A stretch of DNA of 64,000 nucleotides, from positions 62,001 through 126,000 of the forward strand of contig JAAERN010000009.1 in the NCBI GenBank assembly GCA_024230295.1. The letters run 5' to 3'. Source of the DNA: Planctomycetota bacterium. Lineage in GTDB: Bacteria; Planctomycetota; Phycisphaerae; Phycisphaerales; SM1A02. Made by a program: the position numbers and the translations under genes. How positions within the stretch are numbered: the stretch's first letter is position 1; each line of letters starts with the position of its first letter. This document shows positions 2,889 through 23,106 of this stretch, in pieces. A model generated the notes under the pieces. It was not told the origin of the DNA and searched no databases. It was given only the letters and a program-made list of their open reading frames with translations.

Positions 2889-4554
<1,666 letters not shown>

Positions 4555-4558
4555 TGGA

Positions 4559-4885
4559 TCACAGCAGCGAGACCACCATCATGACGAAGACGAAGGTGAT
4601 TGGGATTGAAACGAAAATGGCGAGCGCCCATCGAAGTACACCACCCAATCGCTGAAACTTCTTCTTGGCGCGGATCCACAACCAGAAGATGGCCCAGAGG
4701 GCTACCGAAATGGTGTAGAGCGCGACGCTCTCAGGATTGATGACCCGGGAAATGAAGCTCTCTTGGGAAATCATTGTCGAGTCGATCAAGACGGCAATGG
4801 TGGGGATGGTTCCTCCCCCCGCCGTCATGCCGAGCATAGAGATTTGTGGCAGGTTGGACAGCACGTATTCGAGTGGTGGAGCCAT
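4559..4885 (-). CDS. Small membrane protein of unknown function
   Basis: This 108-residue ORF has two clear hydrophobic segments near its C-terminus, ALYTISVALWAIFWLWI and ALAIFVSIPITFVFVMMVV, separated by a basic stretch (RAKKKFQRLGG). The N-terminus is glycine-rich and less hydrophobic. No family is recognised. It lies 34 bases downstream of the zinc-ribbon membrane gene on the same strand, so the two may be co-transcribed, and it ends 4 bases from the enolase stop. No strong ribosome site precedes the ATG, so the exact start is uncertain. Confidence 0.5.
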   Translation of the reverse strand: MAPPLEYVLSNLPQISMLGMTAGGGTIPTIAVLIDSTMISQESFISRVINPESVALYTISVALWAIFWLWIRAKKKFQRLGGVLRWALAIFVSIPITFVFVMMVVSLL

Positions 4886-4919
4886 TCATTGAGGGCTTCG
4901 ATGACACGGTCGCCTGATG

Positions 4920-5393
4920 TCATCGCAGCACGACCAAAGTGCCAACAATCAATATGGCCGCAACGGAGATCCACACCAGTGTGCCCACGAGAACAGTCTT
5001 CGCAGCCTCGGACCTGGTAATGATGCCGCGATTTCGGATCCAGAAAACCAGGGTGGCGGCAGAAAATATCAGCAACACGAAGGGTGGAAGCCATGCCACT
5101 GGATTGTGGCGGCTGCTGGATGTTGCGATGGCATAACAAGTGAGAGTAAACGAGATGGCGATGATCAATGCCAGGCCAACGAGAACAACAAAGTGCCAGC
5201 GTGGCGGATCACCATCATCGTCGATAAGTCGTAATTGGAGTGGCACTCCACATTCGCTGCACCGAGGTTCCCGAACACCTGAAAGGTCATAGTTGCAGGC
5301 GGGGCAGGACAACGACGATGCTCGAATCACATGCGCCGCGAGGGCTGCGGTACTCAGATTGTCAGCATTCGTTCCTATGGAATAGTCATCCAC
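4920..5393 (-). CDS. Zinc-ribbon membrane protein
   Basis: This 157-residue protein has an N-terminal four-cysteine zinc ribbon, CPACNYDLSGVREPRCSECG (about residues 34-53), followed by three predicted membrane helices (about 70-90, 100-118 and 133-155). Zinc-ribbon proteins with the pattern C-P-x-C-x-Y-D-L-x-G...C-x-E-C-G are common in planctomycetes and largely uncharacterised. The cytoplasmic ribbon plus helices suggests a small membrane-anchored domain protein, but no reaction can be assigned. It lies downstream of the oligopeptide permease gene (72-base gap) and upstream of a second small membrane gene, all on the minus strand. Confidence 0.7.
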   Translation of the reverse strand: MDDYSIGTNADNLSTAALAAHVIRASSLSCPACNYDLSGVREPRCSECGVPLQLRLIDDDGDPPRWHFVVLVGLALIIAISFTLTCYAIATSSSRHNPVAWLPPFVLLIFSAATLVFWIRNRGIITRSEAAKTVLVGTLVWISVAAILIVGTLVVLR

Positions 5394-5465
5394 TCGGCAG
5401 GCTTACCCAATCTCATCACACCCGAATATACCCCTGTCCAGATCTAAGGCACCAGATTCATCTGC

Positions 5466-6437
5466 TCAATGCCCGTTCAACTGAATTCTTGGATCGACCC
5501 AGGCGTACATGACGTCGACAGCGAGATTGAGCAGGACGAGCATGGCCGAATACACCAGAACCACCCCCATGATCATTGTGAGATCCTTACCGAGTACAGC
5601 ATCGACGAAATGCATGCCAAGTCCGGGAATAGCGAAGACTTTCTCGATGACGAATGAACCGGTCAGGGCGGCGGCGGTTGCAGGCCCGAGATACGACAGC
5701 ACTGGGAGCAAGGCGTTCGGAAGAACGTGACGCACGACGACGACTTGTTGAGAGACTCCCTTGGCGCGGACGGCGCGAATGAAATCTGCATGCATGACCT
5801 CGATGACCCCTTGACGCGCCAGCCGTGCGATCCACGCTGCAAACGGAAGGCTGAGCGCCAATGACGGCAAGAGGATGTGTTTCCATGAACCCCAGCCGCC
5901 AATCGGTAACCACTGCAACCACACACCACCGAGCATCAAGAGCGCAGTTCCAATGACGAAGGCAGGGATGCTCACCCCGATGATGCTGACCGATCCGGTG
6001 ATCCGATCGGTCCAACTTCCGGGACGCAGCCCACCAAGCGTTCCCATTGTGATTCCAATGAGCAGTGCGAGCAGAATGGCCGAGAGTCCAACCGTCATGG
6101 AGACTGGCAATTGATCCGAAATGATGTCACCCACGGTCCAATTTTCGTGCCGAAGGCTCGGACCAAAGTCGATGACCGGCCCCGTCTGATCACCAAGCAA
6201 CCAGTTCACCCCCGTGATATCACCCAAATATGACCAGTAGAAGGACCATGGGTCATCGAGGTTCCACTGCGCCTGCATCGCGGTTGCAATCGCTTCAGGT
6301 GGTCTTCGCCCCTCATCTTTCTCGAGAGGGTTTCCGGGGATAAGCCACGCCAACGTGAACGTGATCGTGTACACCGCAAGCAGGATGAAAGGAACCTGAA
6401 CAAGCCGCATCACAATGAGTCGACGCATGCCTGTCAT
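5466..6437 (-). CDS. ABC transporter permease, DppB/OppB family
   Basis: This is a 323-residue inner-membrane permease of the peptide/nickel type. It has an N-terminal helix, a large periplasmic loop, and the EAA-type coupling segment DFIRAVRAKGVSQQVVV (about residues 217-233), followed by the family hallmark GSFVIEKVFAIPGLG and the C-terminal VDPRIQLN. Its start overlaps the stop of the upstream binding-protein gene by 4 bases (ATGA), so the two are translationally coupled. Importers of this family normally also need a DppC-type permease and one or two ATPases; none is present downstream, where a zinc-ribbon gene follows. The partners are probably encoded elsewhere. Confidence 0.93.
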   Translation of the reverse strand: MTGMRRLIVMRLVQVPFILLAVYTITFTLAWLIPGNPLEKDEGRRPPEAIATAMQAQWNLDDPWSFYWSYLGDITGVNWLLGDQTGPVIDFGPSLRHENWTVGDIISDQLPVSMTVGLSAILLALLIGITMGTLGGLRPGSWTDRITGSVSIIGVSIPAFVIGTALLMLGGVWLQWLPIGGWGSWKHILLPSLALSLPFAAWIARLARQGVIEVMHADFIRAVRAKGVSQQVVVVRHVLPNALLPVLSYLGPATAAALTGSFVIEKVFAIPGLGMHFVDAVLGKDLTMIMGVVLVYSAMLVLLNLAVDVMYAWVDPRIQLNGH

Positions 6438-16474: not shown

Positions 16475-16939
16475 CTACGCCGTCACTGAAACCATGTTGA
16501 TCGGGCTCAGTGGTCGATCGCCACCATCGGTCTCGGTTGCACCAATTTTGCGAACGACATCGAGCCCGTCGGTCACCTTACCGAAAGCTGTGTATTGCCC
16601 ATCAAGGTGCTGGCAGTGATCTCGGCCAAGACAGATAAAGAACTGGCTTCCAGCAGAGTTTGGGTCGCTCGTCCGCGCCATCGACAGAACACCCTCATCG
16701 TGCTTGCGGTCATTGAACTCGGCGTCTACTGACCAGCCCGGACCACCGGTGCCGGTTCCATCGGGACACCCACCCTGAATCATGAAACCCTCAATAATTC
16801 GGTGGAATCCCGTGTCGTTGTAGAACCCATCACGGGCGAGTTTCTGGAAGTTCTCGACGTGCTTCGGGGCGACGTCATCCCAGAGTTCTAGGGTGAGAGG
16901 TCCGAGGGTGGTTTCGACGGCGGCGGTTGGATAGCTCAT
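16475..16939 (-). CDS. Cyclophilin-type peptidyl-prolyl cis-trans isomerase
   Basis: This is a 154-residue single-domain cyclophilin without a signal peptide, so a cytoplasmic folding catalyst. The family core is visible: HVENFQKLARDGFYNDTGFHRII, FMIQGGCPDGTGTGGPG, LSMARTSDPNSAGSQFFI and YTAFGKVTDGLDVV, including the active-site Arg in FHRI and the FMIQGG segment. It is convergent with gatB (14-base gap) and downstream of the diadenylate cyclase gene by 42 bases on the same strand. Confidence 0.95.
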   Translation of the reverse strand: MSYPTAAVETTLGPLTLELWDDVAPKHVENFQKLARDGFYNDTGFHRIIEGFMIQGGCPDGTGTGGPGWSVDAEFNDRKHDEGVLSMARTSDPNSAGSQFFICLGRDHCQHLDGQYTAFGKVTDGLDVVRKIGATETDGGDRPLSPINMVSVTA

Positions 16940-16981: not shown

Positions 16982-17854
16982 CTACCGCCGCCCCGGTTCA
17001 AGTGACGCAACCATCTGCCCAGCACGCCAAATGCGAACGGTTCCATCACTGGAACTGACAGTGAGCGCGATCGACCGCGTGGAGTCTGTAATGCCAGCCG
17101 CGGCCGCATGGCGAGCACCAAGCCCAGCTTCGATCTGATGGCGTGATGTTGCCAAGAGTCGTGTCCCTGCTGATTCGACTACACCGTTTCCTCGAATGAG
17201 AATGGCACCGTCGAGTTGTGAATACTCCCGAATCGTCTCTGTCATCCGTTGATCCAAAATGTTTCGAGACTTCTCGGGGTATCCCTGGAATGGATTCAAG
17301 ATCATCTGCTCGGACTTGGTCAGTACCTCCGACGTATCACCAACCACAAGAAGTGCTCCGATGTGCCGGCCTTCTCGGCCGTGCGCGCCGAGGTGCAGAG
17401 CCAGATCAAGGGAACGTTGAAAGACGGTCCGCTTGATGTGTTCGGCGATTGATGGTTGATCTGATGCATGGAGCAATTCATATTCGGCGCCGAGATGCAG
17501 CACGATCAGGCTGTCAAGGAGACCGCGGTAGGGACCCGTCAAAAAGACAGCCGTGTCGGCGAGGTCGAGCAACCGCCGCGATACCGCCACAAGCGCTGCC
17601 AACTTGACCTGTCCGAGGCGGTCGAGTTCCACATCCGGAACACTCAAAATCTGTTGTGGTGGAATTCGAAGTCGGTCTGCTCGCCTTTGATCGTCAACCC
17701 GTCTCGTTAGGAGAATGGTTCCTTCGGGAGGCTCGGTCCCCTCGGGCAGTGCTTCGGCTGCCACCAGTACCGCCTTGGCACCGGACGCTCGGGCGATTCC
17801 GGCGGCAGCTTCGACAAGCAGATTGGCTGTCATGGCAGGGTCGGGCACGGGCAC
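16982..17854 (-). CDS. Diadenylate cyclase, DacZ-like (c-di-AMP synthase)
   Basis: The C-terminal half (about residues 150-285) is a DisA_N/DAC domain. It has EGRHIGALLVVGD, NPFQGYPEK, the catalytic DGA in YSQLDGAILI (215-217) and the nucleotide-binding GARHAAAAGIT (246-256), matching the RHR-type motif except that the second Arg is Ala. The enzyme family condenses two ATP into cyclic di-AMP. The N-terminal half (ARASGAKAVLVAAEAL) resembles the pyruvate-kinase-like alpha/beta domain of archaeal DacZ rather than the membrane CdaA or DNA-binding DisA layouts. No membrane helix is seen, so it is probably soluble. A lipoprotein gene lies 43 bases upstream. An ATG at 17836 is an alternative start. 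Confidence 0.85.
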   Translation of the reverse strand: MPVPDPAMTANLLVEAAAGIARASGAKAVLVAAEALPEGTEPPEGTILLTRRVDDQRRADRLRIPPQQILSVPDVELDRLGQVKLAALVAVSRRLLDLADTAVFLTGPYRGLLDSLIVLHLGAEYELLHASDQPSIAEHIKRTVFQRSLDLALHLGAHGREGRHIGALLVVGDTSEVLTKSEQMILNPFQGYPEKSRNILDQRMTETIREYSQLDGAILIRGNGVVESAGTRLLATSRHQIEAGLGARHAAAAGITDSTRSIALTVSSSDGTVRIWRAGQMVASLEPGRR

Positions 17855-17897
17855 GCTCCGAGTAGTTGCGGTGTGCAGTCAACGGTCGGTGTGGTGG

Positions 17898-18707
17898 CTA
17901 TCTGCTGAAGTTAGGACGGCTCTTGAACTTCGAGATTCCAGTTGGCACAAGGAACGTGTGGCCTCGATACCTCGTGAGCGATCCGCTGAGTAGGACCGGC
18001 TTGCGATAGTCGGTTCCTTTGCCGGATCGAATCAGCTTTGTGAGTGTCGGAGAGGGGAGCAGTACAGCCGGTTCGTCTTCCATGCCCCAGGCGTCCGAGT
18101 CGTACACGAAGACCCAAGCACCATGACGACCTCGAAGAAGGCGACCGCGGCGTGAGAGAATCAGTGTTCCATCCAACGGCCCGCTTCGAGGCGAAGCTTC
18201 ATCGCCGCGATCTACGGTTGTTGGCAGTGTCGGGACGGATTGTTGCAGCCGCGCAACAATGTCGGCCACACTGTCTCCCTCGGCAGTTCCGCTTCGCATC
18301 TCATCGTCTGGATCTCGCTGCACCACATCCGGTACGTTGCGTGGTGCGATGGAGGTCTGCACTTCGGCATGCTTTGGCATGAGCCAATTGCGGCTCTCGA
18401 AGACTGTGACGTCGCCCGAGACTGTAAATGTTGGCGGGGATTCCTCAGACGCCTGCCATCGTTCCATGTCTTCCAGCACCCGGTTTGGCAGGAGCAAGAA
18501 GTCTCGAGTTCGTCCTTCTGGGTCGGCGGCATCGCCGATCAGTCTGAGGACCCAGGGCGACCACTCGTCGTCCCTCACCATGATCCCATCAACACGCGTC
18601 AGAACCGCCCCGTTGGGAACCAGAGGAGCTGGTCCGGCGGTGGGAGGAGAAGATTCCGAACCCAAAAGGCACGCCGATATTGCCAAGGCCAATGCAGTCA
18701 TGCCCAC
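17898..18707 (-). CDS. Lipoprotein of unknown function
   Basis: This is a 269-residue protein whose N-terminus, MGMTALALAISACLLGSES, is a short lipoprotein signal with the lipobox ISAC, so it is probably lipid-anchored in the envelope. The mature part has a beta-rich C-terminal segment (GAWVFVYDSDAWG, PVLLSGSLTRYRGHTFLVP) and a middle region rich in acidic and proline residues. No family is recognised. It is immediately upstream of the diadenylate cyclase (43 bases) on the same strand, and 140 bases from a divergent tRNA-Cys gene. Confidence 0.7.
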   Translation of the reverse strand: MGMTALALAISACLLGSESSPPTAGPAPLVPNGAVLTRVDGIMVRDDEWSPWVLRLIGDAADPEGRTRDFLLLPNRVLEDMERWQASEESPPTFTVSGDVTVFESRNWLMPKHAEVQTSIAPRNVPDVVQRDPDDEMRSGTAEGDSVADIVARLQQSVPTLPTTVDRGDEASPRSGPLDGTLILSRRGRLLRGRHGAWVFVYDSDAWGMEDEPAVLLPSPTLTKLIRSGKGTDYRKPVLLSGSLTRYRGHTFLVPTGISKFKSRPNFSR

Positions 18708-19011: not shown

Positions 19012-19716
19012 ATGTCCATGCCTCCTCACATTCTGATTGTTGAAGACGAGTGTGAAATTGGTGAACTTGTGCGGCTGCATGTTGAGAAGGCTGGCTATCG
19101 CACGAAGCTTGTTGAGTCTGGTGAGTCCGCGCTTCAGCATGCCCAGGGAAATGCGGTCGATTTGATCATTCTCGACCTGATGCTTCCCGGTATCGACGGC
19201 CTAGAGGTCTGTAAGCGTCTTCAGTGGGAGAAGTCTACGCGGCACATCCCAGTCATCATGTTGACCGCCCGTGGCGAGGACGCGGATATTGTCACGGGTC
19301 TTGAACTCGGAGCGGTCGATTACATCGTCAAGCCATTCAGCGCCAAGGTGCTGGTTGCGAGAATCCGAAACGCACTGCGCCGCGGTGACGACGTGATTTC
19401 GGACGGCGATCTGGAACATGCGCACGGCATCGAAATCAACGAAGATCGATTCGAAATCCACGTTCATGGAGAGCCAATTGAGGTAACGGTCAGCGAGTTT
19501 CACATCCTCAGGTTTTTGGCCTCTCGCCCCGGATTTGTCCGAACCAGAGAACAGATCATCGACGCAACACACGGCCCCCGCGTCGTGATGTCCAACCGCA
19601 CAATTGACGTTCACATCACATCACTGCGGCGCAAGTTGGGGTCAGCTGGTGATCTCATTGAAACGGTTCGTGGAGTTGGGTATCGACTCGACGACGGCGG
19701 GCCGGCGAGCCTATGA
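19012..19716 (+). CDS. OmpR/PhoB-family response regulator
   Basis: This 234-residue regulator has an N-terminal receiver domain with acidic pair EDE (11-13), phosphoacceptor Asp55 in LIILDLMLPG, Thr85 in VIMLTARG and Lys107 in YIVKPFS. It is followed by a winged-helix DNA-binding domain (about 135-230), with VSEFHILRFLASRPGFVRTREQ-type sequence and the C-terminal GVGYRLDD. It overlaps the kinase gene by 4 bases (ATGA). With the Na/phosphate transporter and PhoU-like gene downstream it is most likely a PhoB-type regulator of phosphate starvation. This role is inferred from context, since OmpR-family members look alike. Confidence 0.93.
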   Translation: MSMPPHILIVEDECEIGELVRLHVEKAGYRTKLVESGESALQHAQGNAVDLIILDLMLPGIDGLEVCKRLQWEKSTRHIPVIMLTARGEDADIVTGLELGAVDYIVKPFSAKVLVARIRNALRRGDDVISDGDLEHAHGIEINEDRFEIHVHGEPIEVTVSEFHILRFLASRPGFVRTREQIIDATHGPRVVMSNRTIDVHITSLRRKLGSAGDLIETVRGVGYRLDDGGPASL

Positions 19717-21167
19717 ATACCAATCGGTCCACCAGGGGTTTGTTGTGTCGAACAGCACTCCCGATCGTGGCCGCGCAAATCGTCGTGTTGGCTGGCTTGG
19801 CGTGGGCTATCGCCACCATGATCGATCCTGCGAAATACGGCGCAGTGCTTGGGATTGTGGCTGTCGGTGCTGTGCTGTCGTTGCTTGCAACCACAGTAAT
19901 CACGGTGTGGATCGCCAAACGCACTGAACGGCAGATTCACAGCATGGCCATGACAGCAGCGCGTCTCGCCGAAGGCGACCTTGTGAGTCGGTTCGAACTA
20001 GATCTTCCTGGCGCACTGGGTGGGCTGTCGGAATCTCTCAATCAAGTGGCCACTTATCAGGGTGATCGAATTAGACAGCTTGGATTGCAACAGAACGAGA
20101 TGCAGGGAATCCTTCACGCCATGAGCACGGGCGTCATCGCGATGGCGTTGGATGGTCGAGTCATCAGTATGAATCCGGCGGCGGTGAACATGCTTGCAGT
20201 CGGCGAGATGGATGTCAGGGGCCGTGATATTGGCGAGATCGGCGTTGATCCCGAGCTCGTTCAATTTGCGACATCTGTCACATCTCAAGGCGGACACGGA
20301 GAAACAGAGCTAGCGATCGGCGGATCGACAGGGCAACGCCTTGTTGCCCGCAGTGAATCCATTCACGACAACCAATCGGCTCTTGTCGGCATCGTTTTGC
20401 TTCTTGATGATGTCACGCGGCTCCGCCAGTTGGAGCACATGCGGGTCGATTTTGCAGCCAACGTATCACACGAGTTGCGCACGCCCATCACATCCATTCA
20501 CGGCTACGCCGAACTGATGGTCGATGAGAAGGATGGATCTGATCGCTTGCGGTATGCAGAAGTCATTCTCAGGAGTTCCGCAAGGCTCTCGTCGATTATC
20601 GATGACCTTCTCTCGCTTGCAAGACTCGAGGATCCACTGAGGGCACAACTGCAGGAACGAGAGTTAGTACAGATTCATGAGTTACTGGACGAGGTTGTCA
20701 GAGCCTGCTCGGCAGAGGCGGAGAAGGGCAGGGTGATCCTGAAGATTGAGTGTCACGAACACCTCGAGTGTCACGGCAGTCGACAGCTCTTGGAGCAAGC
20801 CGTGGGCAACTTGGTTGTCAACGCGATCCGGTACGGCCCCGAGGACTCTTCGGTCACACTGTCCGCGCAGGCGATCGCTGGGGGTCAGATACAGATCAGC
20901 GTTTCGGATCATGGCCCCGGGATCGAATCTTCCCACCGCGAGCGCATTTTCGAGCGGTTCTACCGCGTCGACAAGGGTCGCAGCCGCGAAGTGGGGGGGA
21001 CCGGCCTTGGTTTGGCAATCGTCAAACACATTGCACTGGCGCATGGTGGCCATGTCGAGTTGAAAAGTGGTGTGGGACAGGGATCTGTATTTCGCATCAC
21101 GCTCCCCGTTTCCGCGCCGGCAAGATCTCCTGAACACGATCTTAACACGACACACATACATTCTTAG
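19713..21167 (+). CDS. PhoR-like sensor histidine kinase
   Basis: This 484-residue membrane kinase has two N-terminal helices (LPIVAAQIVVLAGLAWAIA and LGIVAVGAVLSLLATTVIT) with a very short loop between them. It continues with a HAMP-like segment, a PAS-type domain (MQGILHAMSTGVIAMALDGRV), a HisKA dimer domain with H253 in NVSHELRTPITSIHGY, and an HATPase domain with N box (VGNLVVNAIRYGP), DHGPGI and GGTGLGLAIVKH. The tiny extracytoplasmic loop suggests sensing through other proteins, as for PhoR with PhoU. It is translationally coupled to the response regulator and 62 bases upstream of the phosphate transporter. Confidence 0.93.
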   Translation: MNTNRSTRGLLCRTALPIVAAQIVVLAGLAWAIATMIDPAKYGAVLGIVAVGAVLSLLATTVITVWIAKRTERQIHSMAMTAARLAEGDLVSRFELDLPGALGGLSESLNQVATYQGDRIRQLGLQQNEMQGILHAMSTGVIAMALDGRVISMNPAAVNMLAVGEMDVRGRDIGEIGVDPELVQFATSVTSQGGHGETELAIGGSTGQRLVARSESIHDNQSALVGIVLLLDDVTRLRQLEHMRVDFAANVSHELRTPITSIHGYAELMVDEKDGSDRLRYAEVILRSSARLSSIIDDLLSLARLEDPLRAQLQERELVQIHELLDEVVRACSAEAEKGRVILKIECHEHLECHGSRQLLEQAVGNLVVNAIRYGPEDSSVTLSAQAIAGGQIQISVSDHGPGIESSHRERIFERFYRVDKGRSREVGGTGLGLAIVKHIALAHGGHVELKSGVGQGSVFRITLPVSAPARSPEHDLNTTHIHS

Positions 21168-21229
21168 GGGGCGTGCATTCCCATGCACATCGTCATCGCT
21201 GGGCAAGAATCCGGCGATGAGGGGTGCCG

Positions 21230-22408
21230 ATGCAGACTGAACTAAACCAACGCCAAGCTCGCCCGTTCTGGCTCCACGCGCTGCTAGCCCTGCTATCGCT
21301 CTACTTCTTCCTCTCCGCGATCAACGTCATGGGTTCCGGGCTCAAGGCGATCGGCAAGGAGACGACATGGCTGGCAGATGCGATCGCGCAGGGGGACAAC
21401 CCGCTCGTCGCGCTCATGGCCTCCGTACTTGTTACGTCGGTTGTTCAGAGTTCGTCGTTTACCACATCACTCATCATTACACTGGTTGCAGCCGGAGAAC
21501 TGAGTCCGGGTACAGCGGTGTTTGCTGTCATGGGTGCCAACATCGGCACCAGTATCACGGGAATCATCGTGTCTCTCGGCACACTACGCATCAAGCGGCA
21601 GTTCCGGCGCGCCTACGCCACCGCCTTGATGCACGCGATCCCAAACGTTCTGACCGTTGTGTTGTTATTTCCACTCGAGTGGGCGACCAGTTCGACAGGT
21701 GCGGACGGATTTACGGGTGGAATTCTGACCAGAACAGCCAGATGGATCACATCAATGCTCGATCTTGGATCTGGCGAGAAGATGTTCAATCCAATCAAGG
21801 CGATCACCAAGCCGATTGTGACGGCGGTCAAAGAAGGAGCGGGGTGGATTTCGGGTGACAACACGACGCTTGCGGCCACACTCGTCGCGGCTATTGGATT
21901 GCTAATCCTCTTCATGGCCCTCATCGGTCTCGTTAAGAATCTGAAGGACGCGCTGCTCAAACGAATCGAAGGTCTGTTTACAGTTCTGATCTTCCGAAAC
22001 GATCTGCTCGCATGGATATCGGGAATCTTCTCGACCGTGGCTGTGCAGTCCAGTTCGGTTACAACGAGCCTCATGGTTCCGATTGCCGGTGCGGGCGCGG
22101 TGAAGTTGCGCCGGGTCTTCCCATTTATGCTTGGTTGCAACATCGGCACGACTGTGACCGGCGTGATTGCAGCAACGGCCAATCCAACGGCTGGCGCTGT
22201 CATCGTGGCCATATCCCATGTAATCTTCAATCTGACCGACAATGCGATCTGGTATCCACTGAGAATCATTCCGATTCGACTGGCGAAGTGGTACAGCTCG
22301 CTTGCCGCCCGGCGGCGGAAGTATGCGTTCATCTTCCTGGCTACCGTGTTTCTCGTTGTTCCGACTGTGGCACTGCTTATCTCGGAACTGTTTTTCTTCA
22401 GCGACTGA
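21230..22408 (+). CDS. Na+/phosphate cotransporter family protein (PNaS/NptA-like)
   Basis: This is a 392-residue membrane transporter of the Na/Pi-cotransporter II family. The family's inverted repeat of QSSS motifs is visible: TSVVQSSSFTTSLIITLVAAG with GANIGTSITGIIV in the first half, and STVAVQSSSVTTSLMVP with GCNIGTTVTGVIAA in the second. These segments line the substrate path in the family. The ATG at 21230 follows GAGGGG at a 5-base spacing and is preferred over the GTG at 21224. It sits between the PhoBR-type pair and a PhoU-like gene, so inorganic phosphate is the probable substrate. Confidence 0.93.
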   Translation: MQTELNQRQARPFWLHALLALLSLYFFLSAINVMGSGLKAIGKETTWLADAIAQGDNPLVALMASVLVTSVVQSSSFTTSLIITLVAAGELSPGTAVFAVMGANIGTSITGIIVSLGTLRIKRQFRRAYATALMHAIPNVLTVVLLFPLEWATSSTGADGFTGGILTRTARWITSMLDLGSGEKMFNPIKAITKPIVTAVKEGAGWISGDNTTLAATLVAAIGLLILFMALIGLVKNLKDALLKRIEGLFTVLIFRNDLLAWISGIFSTVAVQSSSVTTSLMVPIAGAGAVKLRRVFPFMLGCNIGTTVTGVIAATANPTAGAVIVAISHVIFNLTDNAIWYPLRIIPIRLAKWYSSLAARRRKYAFIFLATVFLVVPTVALLISELFFFSD

Positions 22409-22422
22409 CGGAGTGATTCAAC

Positions 22423-23106
22423 ATGTTTGGGCAGCTGATTGCGGCGTTGAAATCAGGCGATCAACTTGATATTGCATTTGCGGAGTTTCTGCAGATGGTC
22501 GATGCGTCCGAGTGGATGTTTCACGAGGCGAACGATGTTCTTCGGGGCAAGAAGCGAGAGCAGGACGTTGCCGAGGCGCTCTACAGCAAGGATCAGGAAA
22601 TCAACCGACTCCTTCGGTCGGTACGAACCGGCATCTTGACGCACTTGAGCGTCAATCCAGTTGCAGACATCCCTGGCTGTCTGGCGCTCATGAGCGTTGC
22701 CAAGGATGCCGAGCGAATCGGCGACTACTGCAAGAATGTGTTCGAGGTGGGGCGGTACTACGAGGACGACTACAGCATTGAGCGGTATCACGATCCGCTT
22801 GAGGACATTCGAAGCCGGACGGGCGAATTGTTCGGGGTCGTTCATGAAGCATTTGCCGAGTCGAGCGTGAAGAAGGCCAAGGCCTCGATCAAAGCAGCCG
22901 ATCGGATTCGAGGCGAGTGTGATGCGGTTGAAGAAACACTGCTTCGAGATCGCCGCGAGGTGCAGACGCACGTGGCAGTGGCGTATTCGCTGCTCGCAAG
23001 GCATTACAAGCGGGTAGCCTCACACCTCGCAAATATCGCGACGGCCGTGTTTGGGCGCATCGAAGACCTCGACTTCCGCAAGCCCAAGAAAGGCGATGGC
23101 GGTTGA
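22423..23106 (+). CDS. PhoU-domain protein
   Basis: This 227-residue all-helical protein resembles PhoU. The helix SVAKDAERIGDYCKNVFEVG contains the E/DxxxD metal-binding pattern of the family, and the C-terminal helix SLLARHYKRVASHLANIATAV carries a related pattern. It is 14 bases after the phosphate transporter. PhoU-like proteins paired with Na/Pi transporters are thought to modulate transport or signal to PhoR; that function here is inferred from the neighbours. It ends the phosphate block; the next gene is convergent. Confidence 0.88.
   Translation: MFGQLIAALKSGDQLDIAFAEFLQMVDASEWMFHEANDVLRGKKREQDVAEALYSKDQEINRLLRSVRTGILTHLSVNPVADIPGCLALMSVAKDAERIGDYCKNVFEVGRYYEDDYSIERYHDPLEDIRSRTGELFGVVHEAFAESSVKKAKASIKAADRIRGECDAVEETLLRDRREVQTHVAVAYSLLARHYKRVASHLANIATAVFGRIEDLDFRKPKKGDGG

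Follow-up and report, generated by a model that had tools for sequence, protein, structure and literature searches.

The window analysed here, a stretch of 64,000 nucleotides, is part of contig C9 (296,237 bases) of a 2.70-Mb planctomycete genome and carries a gene for a protein in which an N-terminal pyruvate-kinase-like region is joined to a C-terminal diadenylate cyclase (DAC) domain, flanked by a gene for a protein of two related modules and by one for a prolyl isomerase (Table 1). The initial annotation, made from the letters of the sequence, had described a DAC protein with DGA and GARHAAA motifs lying 43 bases from an upstream gene, and both statements are confirmed by the open reading frame, the Pfam matches and the residue positions; in particular, the DGA and GARHAAAAGIT (residues 246–256) motifs are intact, and the gap extends from 17855 to 17897. 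The dacZ frame begins with GTG, a plausible start codon because the proteins of two Phycisphaerales relatives, 78–79% identical to the window protein, begin within two residues of the same point; close named relatives are Phycisphaerales MAGs. A scan for promoters and terminators gave nothing exceeding chance.

Table 1. Features of the dacZ locus, in positions of the window
Feature	Position	Strand	Basis
dacZ-type diadenylate cyclase gene, 290 aa	16982..17854	-	ORF; PF02457 and PF21755; AlphaFold2 model, pLDDT 91.7; tree
DacZ_P domain, residues 13-128, pyruvate-kinase C-terminal-like alpha/beta fold, probable allosteric sensor	17471..17818	-	PF21755, E 1.6e-6; PK_C in 21/52 relatives; fold search
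DAC catalytic domain, residues 156-280	17015..17389	-	PF02457, E 1.2e-19; whole-model fold search
DGA catalytic motif, residues 215-217	17204..17212	-	sequence; D and G invariant in 52/52 relatives
R248-H249-A250, RH(R) motif with Ala as third residue	17105..17113	-	R and H invariant in 52/52 relatives; third residue variable
Neighbouring gene, 269 aa, two related modules (about residues 27-116 and 178-258)	17898..18707	-	module matches in relatives; synteny without DacZ
Cyclophilin-type peptidyl-prolyl isomerase gene, 42 bases downstream of dacZ	16475..16939	-	ORF; family named from sequence; conserved neighbour of the 17898-18707 gene

The N-terminal domain of the window protein matches Pfam DacZ_P, which is described as a "probable sensor domain", with 28.2 bits against a cut-off of 27.4; DacZ_P is matched by 51 of the 52 aligned relatives and PK_C by 21 of them (best E 2.9e-5). 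The AlphaFold2 model of the whole protein, obtained from a 52-row alignment, has a mean pLDDT of 91.7 and that of residues 1–130 alone a mean of 90.8. When the latter was compared with the PDB by Foldseek, the 50 best matches were all pyruvate kinases (E 1.5e-5 to 9e-5, query TM-score 0.57–0.66), and a profile of the domain retrieved the C-terminal domain of pyruvate kinase (residues 420–526) with an E value of 0.004; the whole model, through its DAC half, matched the structures of CdaA, DacM, and DisA (E 1e-7 to 2e-6). The alpha/beta domain of pyruvate kinase type that had been proposed for the N-terminus is thus borne out by the Pfam families and by both the profile and the fold comparison suggested as its check. 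Three residues of this domain, R79, G107, and D114, are invariant in the 52 relatives and make the question of its ligand testable; the effector loop of pyruvate kinase is, in our reading of the profile alignment, not recognisably retained, so that the ligand is not necessarily a sugar phosphate. Domains of this kind are reportedly described in Galperin's review of DAC architectures. A reading of the PF21755 matches in frames of 480–540 aa as pyruvate kinases was dropped, because several of these frames also contain a DAC domain.

In the catalytic half, the alignment of the 52 relatives shows D215, G216, R248, H249, A252, S267, and G279 as invariant and A217 as nearly so. Residue 250, the place of the second Arg of the RHR motif, is instead occupied by at least 12 residue types (Ala in 16 proteins, Ile in 8, Glu in 6, His in 5, Met in 5, Gly in 4, and others), with Arg in just two, and two haloarchaeal DacZ proteins have RHH; for these reasons RHx is the rule in the DacZ class, where the second Arg is not conserved. 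The replacement of this Arg by Ala in the window protein, pointed out in the initial annotation, is therefore real and yet not a peculiarity: judging from the alignment, it is an ordinary change at a position that is free within the family.

The assignment to the DacZ class relies on a maximum-likelihood tree built from 66 DAC domains, of which two are from haloarchaeal DacZ, 39 from bacterial DacZ-like proteins, 20 from planctomycete CdaA, and five from planctomycete DisA. In this tree the bacterial DacZ-like and the haloarchaeal DacZ domains are joined at 99/97, and the window protein groups with its Phycisphaerales relatives (100/100 and 100/96), at a large distance from CdaA and DisA; its root is not trustworthy, since, as a program warning notes, the long branch of DisA joins on the DacZ side. 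Among all NCBIfam DAC models the one for DacZ gives the best score for the DAC part, 104 bits versus 36.5 for CdaM, 35.6 for CdaA, and 20.9 for DisA, although it stays below the equivalog cut-off of 430. Both lines agree with the earlier placement in the DacZ class rather than with CdaA or DisA. Some Phycisphaerae genomes (loci L054 and L057, used in the tree only) encode a DAC protein of the DacZ branch of about 200–220 aa that lacks the DacZ_P domain.

Among the GTDB species genomes at least 518 confirmed relatives were detected, the best 80 of which belong, by the MAG labels as given, to Planctomycetota, Thermodesulfobacteriota and other former Deltaproteobacteria, Nitrospinota, Nitrospirota, Aminicenantota, Verrucomicrobiota, and others; since no part of the broad alignment A1 was sufficiently conserved to scan genomes with, a narrower alignment was used instead. 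The viral contigs scanned yielded no relative. Full-length DacZ occurs in 21 of the 198 genomes of the class and in two of the 11 of the family, a sporadic distribution which indicates that it is dispensable in most of the class. DacZ-branch proteins whose N-termini model as PK_C have been described in Planctomycetales, Myxococcales, and Gemmatimonadales (Braun et al. 2019, PMC6741144). The architecture that was indicated as best known from archaeal DacZ is present as stated; it is, however, common in bacteria and already published for planctomycetes, and the window DacZ is a member of a known family with an architecture that is not new. Sequence, predicted fold, and phylogeny make the PK-C-type diadenylate cyclases a broad bacterial group and not an archaeal speciality.

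Taken together, these data make it very probable that the window gene encodes a soluble diadenylate cyclase of the DacZ class with a PK-C-like N-terminal domain, which most likely makes c-di-AMP and has a predicted sensor role. By analogy with characterised DACs, we infer that two DAC domains would meet head to head, each holding one ATP by the DGA and RH motifs, and would join the two ATP molecules into cyclic di-AMP. By the example of pyruvate kinase, in which this domain takes up an allosteric effector, the DacZ_P domain most likely has a small metabolite as its ligand, and this binding would set the activity of the cyclase or its oligomeric state; the sensing role is suggested by fold and conservation. 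The genome of origin also encodes a second DAC of CdaA type, a 7TMR-HDED protein as in PgpH, two DHH proteins, and TrkA_C proteins and, judged by family membership, is likely to have a c-di-AMP circuit, in which the product of DacZ would feed the PgpH-type and DHH phosphodiesterases and the TrkA_C transport proteins.

The activity of the enzyme has to be weighed against two residues that are unusual in the family: residue 268 is Ser, which occurs there in two of the 52 relatives, most of them having Glu (32) or Gln (12), as CdaA also has Glu in its SEE motif, and Ile is found at residue 218, where Phe is present in 48 of the 52. With these substitutions the activity may be weak or altered. Together with the presence of a second DAC in the genome, they are the points in favour of a degenerate DAC in which the binding of ATP or c-di-AMP has outlasted synthesis and which would act as sensor or decoy alongside the CdaA of the genome. 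This reading is quite unlikely, because DGA, R248, H249, and S267 are intact and conserved, the 78–79% identity is kept in two other Phycisphaerales, and the altered DGA sits in the other DAC of the genome and not in DacZ. In Leptospira CdaA, mutation of the Asp of DGA or of the first Arg of RHR kills the activity and S222A merely lowers it (PMC12974146); both of these essential residues are present in the window DacZ.

The CdaA of the same genome (L001, C39:28614–28967) has HDLG in place of the expected HDGA, DGA being near-universal. This variant is general in the class Phycisphaerae, where CdaA-type loci (among them L001, L058–L062, and L225–L264) have D[L/M][G/A] in 45 of 46 cases and DGA in one, versus DGA in all 28 unambiguous CdaA loci from other classes of the phylum; GxRH and SEE are retained in the variant, and a literature search for D[L/M][G/A] CdaA found no paper. 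Roughly 100 out of 150 Phycisphaerae genomes, the majority of which lack DacZ, keep a 7TMR-HDED protein, and it can be argued on this basis that the variant CdaA still makes a cyclic dinucleotide. A division of labour, in which DacZ would provide canonical c-di-AMP under the control of a central-carbon metabolite bound to its PK-like domain and the D[L/M][G/A] CdaA would have a changed activity or product, is a quite improbable arrangement. The gene following the CdaA of the genome looked by eye like a likely YbbR/CdaR partner, which is not claimed, as it had no Pfam match.

The gene upstream of dacZ was considered as a possible partner of the cyclase. Its product has no Pfam or NCBIfam match, and the label of lipoprotein previously given to it is doubtful, because its lipobox (AISAC) is weak and comes after 13 initial residues with no positive charge among them, and because the counterpart in L116, 57% identical, has no Cys at that place; the protein belongs to a secreted-looking family whose gene adjoins that of a prolyl isomerase in several genomes. 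It has been proposed that this gene is functionally tied to c-di-AMP signalling, which in its full form would mean that signals from the envelope reach the cyclase through a protein that is secreted or anchored in the membrane, the two forming one functional unit. The 43-base spacing on one strand and the gene order shared with L115 and L116, the two closest relatives, speak in favour of this unit, and in L117–L121 the counterpart still lies about 2 kb from dacZ, with isomerase genes between them. However, the synteny of the isomerase with a gene of this type, found in L115–L121, exists without DacZ in L064 and L067. In G409, a genome of the same family, the order GatB, isomerase, upstream-gene counterpart, and response regulator is kept, with no dacZ between isomerase and counterpart and none elsewhere in that genome; in L067 too the isomerase gene and the counterpart are adjacent. 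In addition, 118 of 198 Phycisphaerae genomes have a member of the upstream family versus 21 for full-length DacZ, the upstream-gene counterpart and dacZ are 65 kb apart in G397, and 19 other DacZ neighbourhoods in the class contain no member of the upstream family. The order in G409, the separation in G397, and the absence from the 19 neighbourhoods indicate that the upstream gene belongs to the isomerase neighbourhood and that dacZ lies beside it by chance. A relay from the envelope is thus very unlikely and the proposed tie to c-di-AMP signalling is not supported; as far as the genomic evidence goes, the upstream gene does not appear to be part of a cyclase unit, and the analysis of the neighbours takes away a misleading operon link. 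Further along the window, at 19012–23106, a two-component pair precedes one gene resembling Na/Pi cotransporters and another resembling PhoU; this cluster of phosphate-type regulation, named from sequence only, recurs entirely or partly next to dacZ in L115 and L116.

In other genomes dacZ has different neighbours. In a Nitrospirae MAG (L139) a TrkA_N/DHH/DHHA1 gene (3595–4983) overlaps the start of dacZ (4983–5897), and this overlap is good context evidence for c-di-AMP metabolism; a DHH/DHHA1 gene and dacZ so placed are likely to be a cyclase–phosphodiesterase pair. A DHH/DHHA1 protein adjoins or overlaps dacZ in L139, L138, and L171, in the last by clustering only. Syntrophaceae and related MAGs have dacZ between a divergent rpoH (sigma-32) and clpB, a heat-shock neighbourhood seen in L148, L153, L158, L160, L163, L176, L178, L183, L184, L186, L187, L189–L191, and others; the clpB cluster lies at most two genes from dacZ in 20 of 64 loci. 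A gene for an mgtE-type magnesium transporter adjoins dacZ in L138 (3168–4538, NCBIfam) and, by inspection of the sequence, a second dacZ in L113 (7197–8568).

Among the known systems, the window protein is closest to DacZ/CdaZ (DacY), such as H. volcanii DacZ, whose synthesis of c-di-AMP is Mn2+-dependent, and Methanocaldococcus jannaschii CdaZ, with which it has in common the PK-C-like N-terminal domain, the C-terminal DAC domain, and the DGA and RHx motifs. It differs from these archaeal proteins in being bacterial, in having an N-domain of the Pfam DacZ_P type, for which the H. volcanii and M. jannaschii control genomes gave no match, and in its coexistence with a CdaA. Haloarchaeal dacZ has an MscS gene next door, whereas the window dacZ does not and the MscS genes of its genome are on contigs C113 and C76; the MscS operon is a trait of haloarchaeal dacZ and not of the whole class. 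Characterised DacZ/CdaZ proteins of this architecture, H. volcanii DacZ included, produce c-di-AMP (PMC6741144), and the haloarchaeal enzymes likewise have RHH in place of RHR, so a cyclic dinucleotide other than c-di-AMP is an extremely improbable product of the window enzyme, the indirect points in its favour being a substrate choice that is unreadable from sequence and an RHR motif incomplete as in most DacZ. The bacterial DacZ homologues of Braun et al. 2019 (PMC6741144) and of PF21755 have an identical two-domain make-up, of which the window protein is a diverged member. CdaA (DacA) has a similar DAC fold and DGA/RH chemistry but carries N-terminal transmembrane helices and HDGA and forms a separate clade; in the window protein the N-terminus is, according to the model, a folded alpha/beta domain and the motif reads LDGA. 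DisA is alike in the DAC domain and in the hydrophobic residue ahead of DGA (MDGA in DisA, LDGA in the window protein); in contrast, its DAC domain is N-terminal and is followed by a linker and a helix-hairpin-helix DNA-binding C-terminal part, and it too forms a separate clade.
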